Shown here in pieces: positions 9,861 to 39,483 of a stretch of DNA of 61,417 bases; the stretch's first letter is position 1; every line of letters begins with the position of its first letter. The stretch spans positions 1 to 61,417 of the forward strand of contig JAFPGC010000011.1 in assembly GCA_017423025.1 (NCBI GenBank), given 5' to 3'. A program made the translations under genes and the position numbers. Under the pieces are notes generated by a model. That model ran no database searches. It was not told the origin of the DNA and saw nothing but the letters and a program-made list of their open reading frames with translations. This DNA is from Bacteroidales bacterium (lineage in GTDB: Bacteria; Bacteroidota; Bacteroidia; Bacteroidales; UBA932).

Positions 9861-9868
9861 TTGCTTTC

Positions 9869-10037
9869 GCAACAAATCCTTTAAGAATCGTCGGCTTTGC
9901 CGACCCCTCCCACCGCTTCGCGGCGGGCCCCTCCCGTACCGGGAGAAACTCTTTTTCCCCCCTATTATCCCCCCAGGGGGGTATTTGCCCTATCGGGGCG
10001 GCCGAGGGTGGCTACGGATTTTTAAAGGATATGTTGC
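9869..10037. repeat. Structured hairpin repeat between atpA and atpG (copy 1)
   Basis: Outer arms 9869-9890 and 10015-10037 pair almost completely. Inside, in order, are a 6-bp stem (9890-9895/9899-9904), the linker CCCTCCCA, a 4-bp stem CCGC/GCGG (9913-9923), the linker CGGGCCCCTCCC (9924-9935), a 65-base variable part with its own C6/G6 hairpin, and the 17-mer GCCGAGGGTGGCTACGG (10001-10017). The linkers and 17-mer recur exactly at 39368-39483, while the stems there have different but again complementary sequences. Confidence 0.8.
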
Positions 10038-10052
10038 TACAGCTTTTTTAAT

Positions 10053-18955: not shown

Positions 18956-21385
18956 ATGACCATCAACATCCAGTTACATTACCGTACTGCCTGGGGAGAG
19001 AGCGTCCAGCTCCGCCTGGGTAAGCGACGCATACCTATGGAATCCTCCTTCGGCGGCCTGTGGCAGATTATGCTGGGCGGCCGCGACATCCACGACGGAG
19101 ACCACTTCACCTTCGAGGTGGTCCGCGACGGCCGGGTGATCAAGCGGGAATGGAGGGCGCACCATTTCATGTACCATACCCCCGGCAAAAACATCATTGT
19201 CCGTTCCCGCTGGATGGAGCAGCCGTCCAATTCGGCCTTCTATTCATCGGCCTTCAGCGACGTCATTTTCCGCCGTCCCAGCGGTGCCTCTTTCCGCCAT
19301 CCCCATTCTGAGGAAGGCGCCCGCGGCAACGTGAGCATCCAGGCGGCCGCTCCCGAAGTGCGCTCCGACGAGTCCCTGGCCATCGTGGGCTGCGGAGACA
19401 AGCTGGGCAACTGGGACCGCATCCACATTATGTCGGACCACATTGCCCCCTGGTGGTTCATTACCATGGACATTGACGAGCCCATCGAGTACAAATTCGT
19501 CATCGTAGATACCAAGACCAAGCAAATCCGCTGCTGGGAAGAAGGCCCCAACCATTTCTTTGCCGAGGTGCCGCCCAAGGAAACGCAGGTGATGGTGGCC
19601 GATGTCCAGCCCTCCTTCTCCAGGCAGCCCTGGCGGGGCGCCGGCGTGGCCGTTCCCGTGTTCTCCCTCCGTACGGAAGACAGTTTTGGCGTGGGAGAAT
19701 TCCACGACATTAAAAAACTGGTGGACTGGGCCGTGAAGGCCGGCCAGAACGTGATCCAGCTGCTGCCCATCAACGACACCACCATGACGCGCAGCTGGCG
19801 GGATTCCTATCCGTACAACGCGGTGAGCTCCTTTGCGCTGCATCCGCAGTTTGTGCATCTGCCGGCTGCGGGCGTGCGCCAGGATGCCTCCTACAAGGCC
19901 ATGAAAGCTCATCTGGAGTCCCTCCCCACCGTGGACTACGAAGCTGTGAACGGCGCCAAGTTGGAGCTGCTCCACAAGCTCTACGAGGGCGCCAAGGGCA
20001 AGGCCGTTCTCGCCTCCAAAGAGTACCAGGCCTTTGTGCAAGCCAATTCCTGGCTGCAGCCTTATGCCGTTTTCTGCGTGCTCAGAGATATTTATGGAAC
20101 GCCCGAGTTTGGCGAGTGGAAGCAGCTTAGCACCTACCAGCCCAAAAAGGTACAGGCCTTTGCCAAAGTACATCAGAAAGAGGTGGACTTCTACTGCTAC
20201 GTGCAGTACCTGCTGGATAAACAGCTCAGGGAGGCCGTGGAGTATGCCCATCTGCACGGCGTGGCCCTCAAGGGAGACCTTCCCATCGGCGTAAGCCGTT
20301 CCAGTGCCGATGCCTGGCAGTTCCCCAACTTGTTCCATATGGACAGCCAGGCCGGAGCACCGCCGGATGCCTTTGCCGAGGATGGCCAGAACTGGGGCTT
20401 CCCCACCTACAACTGGGAAGAGATGGAAAAAGACGGCTATGCCTGGTGGAAGGCCCGTATGCGCAAGATGTCGGAATACTTTGACGCCTTCCGCATAGAC
20501 CACATCCTGGGCTTCTTCCGCATCTGGGAGATTCCCATTCCGCACAAGAGCGGCCTCATGGGACATTTCAGCCCCGCTTTGCCGTATTCGGAAGACGAAC
20601 TGCGCAGCCAGGGATTCGACCCTCACACGGGCATTGGGACGGATGTGCTCTTTGTGGAGGATCCGCGTCGCCCCGGCTGGTGGCACCCGCGTATTTCCGG
20701 CAACAAGACGGCCCATTATGCCGCCCTTTCCCCGGAAATGCAACATCGCTATAATCTGCTTTCGGAGAACTTCTTCTGGTTCCGCCACAACGATTTCTGG
20801 AGAGACTGCGCCATGCGGAAACTCCCGGCCCTGCTTCGCTCTACGGGCATGCTCTCCTGCGGAGAAGACCTGGGCATGATTCCCGGCTGCGTGCCGCCGG
20901 TGATGGCCAGTCTGAACATCCTTAGCCTGGAAATCCAGCGCATGCCCAAGGATCCGGCCGATGCCTTCGCCCACCCCGACCGATATCCCTACTGGTGCGT
21001 CTGCGCCACGGGTACGCACGACACCTCGCCGCTGCGCGCCTGGTGGGAGGAAGACCGCGCTCTCACCCAGCGTTACTACAACGAGATGCTGGGTTGCGAA
21101 GGCGACGCCCCGTACTTCTGCGAGCCTTGGGTGGTCGACCTCATCCTGGCCCAGCACATGAAGTCCCCGGCCATGCTGGCCATCCTGCCCCTGCAGGATT
21201 ACCTGGCCACCGACGGAGAAATCCGCTACCAGGGCAATCCGGCCGATGAGCGCATCAACATCCCGGCCATCCCGCGTCACTACTGGCGTTACCGCATGCA
21301 CTGCACGCTGGAGAGCCTCATCGCCAACGACAAGTTCAACGGCCACATCCGCACCCTGGTACAGGCCGCTGCCCGCAACCGATAA
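18956..21385 (+). CDS. malQ: 4-alpha-glucanotransferase with N-terminal starch-binding domains
   Basis: GH77 amylomaltase of about 809 residues, close to the plant DPE2 layout: two CBM20-like modules in the first about 230 residues (the second with CGDKLGNWD and EYKFVIVD), then the catalytic barrel. Catalytic residues are visible in AFRIDHILGFFRIWEIP (nucleophile Asp), SCGEDLGMIP (acid/base Glu) and CATGTHDTSPLR (stabilising Asp). It transfers maltodextrin segments and releases glucose during glycogen or maltose use. ATG 18956 is preferred over the TTG at 18947 because MTINIQLHYRTAWGE is the family start. It heads a run of closely spaced plus-strand genes. Confidence 0.96.
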   Translation: MTINIQLHYRTAWGESVQLRLGKRRIPMESSFGGLWQIMLGGRDIHDGDHFTFEVVRDGRVIKREWRAHHFMYHTPGKNIIVRSRWMEQPSNSAFYSSAFSDVIFRRPSGASFRHPHSEEGARGNVSIQAAAPEVRSDESLAIVGCGDKLGNWDRIHIMSDHIAPWWFITMDIDEPIEYKFVIVDTKTKQIRCWEEGPNHFFAEVPPKETQVMVADVQPSFSRQPWRGAGVAVPVFSLRTEDSFGVGEFHDIKKLVDWAVKAGQNVIQLLPINDTTMTRSWRDSYPYNAVSSFALHPQFVHLPAAGVRQDASYKAMKAHLESLPTVDYEAVNGAKLELLHKLYEGAKGKAVLASKEYQAFVQANSWLQPYAVFCVLRDIYGTPEFGEWKQLSTYQPKKVQAFAKVHQKEVDFYCYVQYLLDKQLREAVEYAHLHGVALKGDLPIGVSRSSADAWQFPNLFHMDSQAGAPPDAFAEDGQNWGFPTYNWEEMEKDGYAWWKARMRKMSEYFDAFRIDHILGFFRIWEIPIPHKSGLMGHFSPALPYSEDELRSQGFDPHTGIGTDVLFVEDPRRPGWWHPRISGNKTAHYAALSPEMQHRYNLLSENFFWFRHNDFWRDCAMRKLPALLRSTGMLSCGEDLGMIPGCVPPVMASLNILSLEIQRMPKDPADAFAHPDRYPYWCVCATGTHDTSPLRAWWEEDRALTQRYYNEMLGCEGDAPYFCEPWVVDLILAQHMKSPAMLAILPLQDYLATDGEIRYQGNPADERINIPAIPRHYWRYRMHCTLESLIANDKFNGHIRTLVQAAARNR

Positions 21386-39367: not shown

Positions 39368-39483
39368 GAGTCACTATTGCTTTGCAAACCGTCGCTTCGC
39401 GACCCCTCCCACCGGCAGAGCCGGCGGGCCCCTCCCTCTTACGAGCCGAGGGTGGCTACGGGTTTGCAAAGCAATAGTGACTC
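39368..39483. repeat. Structured hairpin repeat after the RND operon (copy 2)
   Basis: A perfect 23-bp outer inverted repeat (39368-39390 with 39461-39483) encloses a 5-bp stem GTCGC/GCGAC (39391-39403), the linker CCCTCCCA, a 5-bp stem CCGGC/GCCGG (39412-39424), the linker CGGGCCCCTCCC (39425-39436) and the 17-mer GCCGAGGGTGGCTACGG (39445-39461). Linkers equal those of copy 1 at 9869-10037; stems differ but pair. As RNA it would fold into one long hairpin with side stems and may end the efflux transcript. Confidence 0.85.

Follow-up and report, generated by a model that had tools for sequence, protein, structure and literature searches.

A 61,417-nucleotide stretch of contig JAFPGC010000011.1 from a Bacteroidales bacterium (assembly GCA_017423025.1), hereafter the window, carries a structured repeat between atpA and atpG and a second copy of it elsewhere, raising the question of whether the repeat is an RNA element of the ATP synthase operon or a resident of another kind. 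A sequence-only reading of this DNA had noted linkers shared exactly by the two copies alongside stems that differ in sequence and remain complementary. It had taken this pattern as the hallmark of a selected structure and not of a passive duplicate, and had proposed that the position of the repeat could alter the stoichiometry of gamma.

Two folded copies in the window

Inspection of the sequence places the copies at 9869-10037 and 39368-39483, where a covariance-model search of the window also puts its only matches: 9870-10036 for copy 1 (E = 6.5e-13) and 39371-39480 for copy 2 (E = 1.6e-18). By Pfam, AtpA and AtpG flank copy 1, with an OSCP/delta gene preceding AtpA, and copy 2 lies between genes of the AcrB and P-II families. 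The details reported earlier are present as described, namely the exact identity of the three linkers, the stems GTCGGC/GCCGAC versus GTCGC/GCGAC and CCGC/GCGG versus CCGGC/GCCGG, and outer arms that are unrelated between the copies and complementary within each. The arms of copy 2 are complementary at 23 of 23 positions; those of copy 1 are 27 nt long, 85% complementary, and extend slightly past the ends first given for it (9869-10037). Both copies fold much better than dinucleotide shuffles of themselves (z of -5.8 and -8.4, no shuffle among 200 doing as well). Some 64 additional nt within the pseudoknot loop make copy 1 a long version, of which the same genome has a second example (L002). 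The partner of GAGGG is less certain in the long copy 1 than in short copies. The features are as follows, with no strand assigned to any of them.

9869..10037: copy 1 of the element, in its long form, between the atpA and atpG genes (model match and sequence)
9863..9889: copy 1 left outer arm (inverted repeat with 10017-10043, 85% complementary)
10017..10043: copy 1 right outer arm (inverted repeat with 9863-9889)
9890..9904: copy 1 stem-loop P2, GTCGGC TTT GCCGAC (sequence and fold)
9905..9912: conserved linker CCCTCCCA of copy 1, TGGGAGGG on the minus strand (sequence)
9913..9923: copy 1 stem-loop P3, closing CCC/GGG pairs nearly invariant (sequence, fold, covariation)
9928..10016: copy 1 CCCCTCCC, ~64-nt inserted domain, and pseudoknot GGCC-GAGGG-T-GGCT-ACG (sequence and model alignment)
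39368..39483: element copy 2, between the AcrB-family and P-II-family genes (model match, Pfam)
39368..39390: copy 2 left outer arm (23/23 complementary to 39461-39483)
39461..39483: copy 2 right outer arm (pairs with 39368-39390)
39391..39403: copy 2 stem-loop P2, GTCGC TTC GCGAC (sequence and fold)
39404..39428: copy 2 linker CCCTCCCA and stem-loop P3, closing CCC/GGG (sequence, fold, covariation)
39434..39438: copy 2 pseudoknot S2 strand CCCTC (pairs with 39448-39452, covariation)
39444..39447: copy 2 pseudoknot S1 strand AGCC (pairs with 39454-39457, covariation)
39448..39452: copy 2 pseudoknot S2 other strand GAGGG (covariation)
39454..39457: copy 2 pseudoknot S1 other strand GGCT (covariation)

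A dispersed family within Bacteroidales

Further copies in the same genome were first found by BLAST and a gapped pattern, and five of its copies served to build a covariance model (R1), with R2 as a wider model. R1 has 22 matches in this genome; copy 1 (L001) and L002, both long, are additional to these and bring the total to at least 24. Matches occur in 27 of 31 sampled genomes of the same genus, its own included, at 1 to 39 per genome, and the matches summed over the 31 genomes number 331. Beyond the genus the family thins out: with R2 and stricter filters, matches occur in 5 of 295 genomes sampled from the order, again counting the window's own, which alone matches in a sample of 395 genomes of the phylum. 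A scan of named genomes by core sequence yields at least 118 stretches. All 118 listed are from Bacteroidales-type metagenome-assembled genomes, labeled Bacteroidales, Bacteroidia, Bacteroidaceae, Candidatus Cryptobacteroides (three), or Candidatus Coprenecus (one), and among those that name a source, most are from ruminant or other animal gut. No match was found in the plasmids and phages searched, and one was found in the viral contigs.

The search of genome and relatives that the earlier reading had called for thus returned many further copies, and their stems pair, with imperfect stems in a minority. Its central observation is borne out and proves broader than stated, concerning a family and not a pair of copies. 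In Rfam 15 the window has no family at gathering scores, and 12 loci searched at E<=1 give a single tRNA, away from the element, which is itself unmatched. We found no published description of the family in the open-license PMC literature. Candidate RNAs of palindromic form have been reported from Bacteroidetes (PMC8040213).

A covarying pseudoknot

In the element, read from left to right, an outer arm is followed by an optional hairpin (P2), the conserved sequences CCCTCCCA and GGGCCCCTCCC with a hairpin (P3) between them, an H-type pseudoknot, and the right outer arm. The element is mostly ~110-180 bp in size and its outer arms mostly ~20-40 bp; the arms vary from copy to copy, yet are nearly always complementary. 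The pseudoknot, which lies between P3 and the right arm, is absent from the earlier reader's account.

Covarying pairs are present in every helix, both interleaved pseudoknot stems (S1 and S2) included. Across 104 copies, changes on both sides are seen in 34 of 37 modeled pairs, the paired fraction of cells is 96.6%, and the covariation score is 0.78, a value that none of 500 shuffles reaches and that compares to 0.07-0.11 for slid controls. Because these copies came mostly via the structural model, covariation was recounted on a second set, for which core sequence was the sole criterion: 88 matches, in 80 loci from among the 118 named stretches. Here 31 of 37 pairs change on both sides, 95.0% of cells are paired, and the score is 0.61 against 0.05-0.09 when slid. 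One of five covariation measures, that of further pair types, shows no excess, with shuffles as high in 486/500 and 393/500 cases.

Model-fitted alignments are biased toward modeled helices, with S2 inside the model and S1 outside it. S1 is fully paired in 102 of the 104 copies, 10 of the 12 combinations seen being pairing ones, and its paired cells reach 0.993 against a shuffled maximum of 0.875. In the second set, counted on 84 of the 88 matches with 4 dropped, it is fully paired in 74 and imperfect in 10 (cells 0.970, shuffled maximum 0.908). S2 takes the forms CCCGT/ACGGG, CCCTC/GAGGG, CCCAT/ATGGG, CCCGC/GCGGG, and CCCAC/GTGGG, with a few rarer ones. As local hairpin copying hardly makes interleaved stems, this pattern points to selection on a folded single strand. 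The proposal that stem covariation reflects a maintained fold therefore stands, on many copies, two sets, and both interleaved stems.

Whether paired or not, CCCTCCCA and GGGCCCCTCCC keep their C-tracts almost without variation. On the minus strand, 90 of 104 copies have the four-G-tract motif GGGnGGG...GGGnGGG, and a G-quadruplex at these tracts is possible, judging from the motif. This opens a tentative and rather doubtful extension, in which the family would be a new class of bacterial mobile element. Its movement, by a putative enzyme and with no target-site duplication, would depend on a folded, pseudoknotted strand (RNA or single-stranded DNA) that bears the four G-tracts and possibly switches between pseudoknot and G-quadruplex, and its paired arms would diversify from copy to copy.

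Genomic positions and the ATP synthase operon

Positions were classified for 189 copies, the set that also serves for the strand comparison below (246 alignment rows, less 52 same-copy rows and 5 short rows). The copies lie between genes co-directional with the plus strand (53) or the minus strand (25), between convergent (33) or divergent (7) genes, and inside called open reading frames (ORFs; 46), with 25 unclassified at edges. ORFs are from a purpose-made simple gene caller, to which in-gene copies are visible only if in frame. All 10 host proteins tested match Pfam families, and in each the element lies outside the matched stretch, between two domains or flanking one; the match next to it covers only part of its domain in L045 and L057, where the domain itself may be interrupted. 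Names beyond the Pfam labels (MtaB, RlmI, TilS, and others) are our presumption. The genes that copies adjoin or interrupt are unrelated to one another, and conserved protein genes are among those interrupted in frame.

What does this distribution imply for the atp operon? Of 48 genomes of the genus with an AtpG match (47 besides its own), 30 atpG loci were examined, the window's own included, and a model search of the other 29 finds the element in none. It is absent from the atpA-atpG junction of these 29 relatives, where a conserved RNA element of the operon would be expected. Reading of the junctions by eye, which left out L372 and L377 and misplaced L376, is covered by the model search of all 30 loci.

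A role as regulatory RNA in the atp operon, or as a cis-regulatory family at gene ends that tunes the downstream gene, such as gamma, would fit the real fold, the small share of copies at divergent promoters (7 of the 118 intergenic copies that were classified), and their frequent position close downstream of a stop codon. It would also fit the arms of 4 of 12 orthologous pairs, which are unchanged while the flanks differ by 9-16%. Against it stand the 29 relatives without the element at atpG, the unrelated host genes, and the 46 of 189 copies within ORFs. Signals expected of such a role are likewise scarce. A T-run directly after the arms is found in 2 of 145 copies on the plus strand and 0 of 145 on the minus strand, compared to 4 and 4 in the control; no promoter match occurs at either window copy; and terminator-like matches inside copy 1 number 2 against a shuffled mean of 0.9, near chance. 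The T-run and terminator counts lend no support to an intrinsic terminator. We consider regulation of the operon or of neighboring genes very unlikely. With the element missing from the other 29 loci, a different repeat at four of the junctions, and unrelated host genes elsewhere, the suggested effect on gamma stoichiometry finds no support. Copy 1 is probably a lineage-specific passenger at the atpA stop and atpG start and not a regulator of ATP synthase, and it may have polar effects in this one species. A caution for similar cases is that a covarying structure within an operon need not regulate that operon.

The different repeat, a REP-like one of the CATTCTGAGCGAAG...GAAGAATC type, lies at the atpA-atpG junction of L370, L371, L378, and L385, and a sequence similar to it is found in the mtaB linker of L206, suggesting that different repeats share tolerated sites such as this junction and the mtaB linker. 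AtpG matches are split near residue 200 in nine genomes (G331, G351, G017, G336, G339, G004, G027, G011, and G344), which suggests that atpG of several relatives contains an insertion or a variable linker.

Signs of mobility

From unrelated sites, empty and occupied orthologs, both orientations at a site, in-frame insertions, and patchy distribution, we infer that the family is mobile. The species compared are too diverged for exact element ends. The rlmI-like gene is empty in L345 and occupied in L339. Eight of 14 mtaB loci searched with the model hold an element, four in each orientation, and locus L205 contains what looks like a decayed remnant. In a transporter-like gene the element of L133 (4242-4354) is oriented opposite to those of L172 and L174, with homologous flanks in reverse order, and inversion of the core by recombination between the arms could account for this. 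Within single genomes, close lookalikes with no detectable flank similarity are found in L036/L037 (92% over 120 nt), L090/L136 (97% over 133 nt), and L078/L163 (91% over 127 nt). Copies in G208 have arms and longer flanks in common, as after a recent burst. The contrast originally drawn with a passive duplicate does not hold in that form, as the structure rides on a dispersed repeat with signs of mobility.

Target-site duplication and T-runs were examined in 145 of 173 copies, those with strong arms. Direct repeats of k>=4 at the arm ends occur in 0 of 145 copies (shuffled mean 0.72), and those of k=3 in 6 (shuffled mean 2.5, maximum 7), and allowing offsets of 0-3 brings no excess; arm ends are defined by pairing, and unusual ends could conceal a duplication. 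This bears on an origin as an ordinary MITE, belonging to an insertion sequence with a DDE transposase, its arms being kept by template-switch mutation with no selection on the fold. Terminal inverted repeats, small size, and dispersal are as such an origin would predict, and so are two features of the arms treated below, the palindrome of L338 and the double transversions. The missing target-site duplication argues the other way, as do arms unlike a conserved transposase-binding repeat, covarying interleaved pseudoknot stems, and a strand bias of mismatches, and we regard this origin as quite improbable.

The strand that probably folds

Mismatches in the arms of the 189 copies are asymmetric, 97 being A.C on the plus strand, equivalent to G.U on the minus strand, compared to 38 plus-strand G.U (p = 4e-7). 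Counted by copies, the bias is 65 to 21 toward minus-strand G.U. It is 52:15 where the host gene runs along the plus strand and 20:7 where it runs against it, and by context 11:4 for convergent positions, 12:8, a weak bias, at edges, and 2:4, the other way, for divergent ones. Since the bias follows the element and not the direction of the host, where this can be told, it indicates the minus strand. Core helices show no strand bias (6 versus 9). The folded strand is probably the G-rich minus strand, as RNA or single-stranded DNA (ssDNA), to judge from these mismatches. In 86 of 124 cases the host gene has the direction of the plus strand, so the presumed functional strand would usually be antisense to the host.

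Arms after insertion

Twelve orthologous pairs with flank divergence of 9-29% provide 282 arm pairs for comparison; the orthologous pairs are partly nonindependent, L328 and L065 recurring. Seventeen arm pairs have double changes that keep Watson-Crick pairing, 5 have other double changes, and 15 have single changes, compared to an expectation, under independent change of the two sides, of 6.2 double changes of all kinds. Seven of the 17 are double transversions, which cannot pass via wobble and are counted for hairpin-templated mutation. Arm pairing is kept by compensatory change, and both selection and hairpin-templated correction are possible causes. In an analysis of terminal inverted repeats in 134 copies, the palindrome of L338 extends 37 bp into seemingly native flank. 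Copying of the arms from the target at each insertion was considered and dropped. Copies at different sites in one genome can have the same arms, and arms have a weak consensus, which argues for arms that are inherited and then diverge.

Candidates for a mobilizer

We consider it likely that the copies are Bacteroidales non-autonomous mobile palindromes whose fold is kept because a putative enzyme, acting in trans, recognizes one folded strand. That strand would most likely be the minus one, either RNA or an ssDNA intermediate. The putative enzyme would copy or move the element without target-site duplication, and inserted copies would retain arm pairing via compensatory change. Y1 and RVT_1 candidates checked against the copies yielded no mobilizing gene. 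None of 205 distinct pseudoknot-bearing places holds a copy with cargo, and no autonomous relative with the same ends was found among the loci examined.

A REP-type element moved as ssDNA by a Y1 (RAYT/TnpA-REP) transposase would explain both the strand asymmetry and the absent target-site duplication, and PMC6006769 describes a Y1 subclass in Bacteroidetes whose flanks carry atypical structures. Y1-positive genomes of the genus are also richer in copies (median 12 versus 1.5 in 19 versus 8 genomes, p = 0.001), in a comparison of 27 of the 31 genomes that left out G003, G014, G020, and G028 and excluded G038 (one Y1 match, no copy under a stricter search). Against this, no element match lies around the 24 distinct Y1 places examined out of a list of 62 (32 loci of ~2-9.5 kb, less 8 repeats), the four Y1 genes whose flanks were read adjoin other palindromes or repeats, and G208, G238, G156, and G058, of other genera, have element copies and no Y1 match. 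Mobilization by Y1 is unlikely on this evidence. Y1 (RAYT-like) genes with their own palindromes or repeats alongside occur in L258, L264, L265, and L271; in L258 (G000:C19), from the window's own genome, the Y1 gene at 20134-20310 has a GTGCGGTAGACGTCCC... repeat on both sides.

A folded, strand-asymmetric structure would also suit a retro-mobile RNA, with a reverse transcriptase of the cell as its copying enzyme. We consider this highly improbable, given that RVT_1 has no match in the copy-rich, near-complete genomes G023 (33 copies, 97% complete) and G016 (18 copies, 98%), nor in G208, and that its presence does not track copy number.

Relation to known repeats

The best-known palindromes that can insert into conserved protein genes and be tolerated there are those of Rickettsia. 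Rickettsia palindromic elements (RPE) are described, in PMC2229807 and PMC10969869, as dispersed palindromes of ~105-150 bp, many of them in frame in protein genes. The Bacteroidales family likewise consists of palindromes of similar size dispersed in one genome, with in-frame copies in conserved genes (the 46 of 189 in ORFs, with Pfam matches in 10 of 10 tested). The comparison crosses phyla and is one of description and behavior, not of sequence. RPE lose repeat identity, according to PMC6649704, whereas the arms here keep pairing by compensation, and a covarying pseudoknot is a further difference. By analogy, the Rickettsia elements are the closest in behavior, and the pseudoknot, strand bias, and varied paired arms set the Bacteroidales family apart.

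Other small repeats resemble it in part. MITEs such as NEMIS/Correia, ERIC, and RUP, as described in PMC10969869 and PMC2229807, are small and non-autonomous with terminal inverted repeats and hairpin transcripts. The Bacteroidales element is also small and non-autonomous with terminal inverted repeats, but these vary among copies and target-site duplication was not found at the arm ends. REP elements with Y1 (TnpA-REP) share hairpins, which act as one DNA strand, and many copies (PMC6006769); the Bacteroidales element is larger, pseudoknotted, away from examined Y1 genes, and present in genomes without a Y1 match. A multi-arm RNA fold has been proposed for a dispersed repeat, the Caulobacter CIR (PMC2229807), and the present element is comparable in this, but CIR, from another phylum, has two linker-joined arms and a GANTC motif and lacks an outer palindrome.

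As an independent family, with 331 matches in 31 genomes, the Bacteroidales element offers a rich comparative data set, and its covarying pseudoknot and strand bias make recognition of small mobile repeats as folded single strands testable. The element would also account for unusual linkers that these bacteria have in housekeeping proteins.

Individual loci add variations. The L300 copy near 880-994 has a second pseudoknot-like half, GGTAACGGGCGACC, just past its right arm, and copies in G011 have an outer CTGAAAAA block in common within longer arms. The G208 copies L241-L250 seem to be embedded in a longer repeated unit with common flanks. In the rlmI-like genes of L342, L343, and L344, the same linker holds a different G-rich insert, of the GGGGTTTCGGGGGG... 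type.
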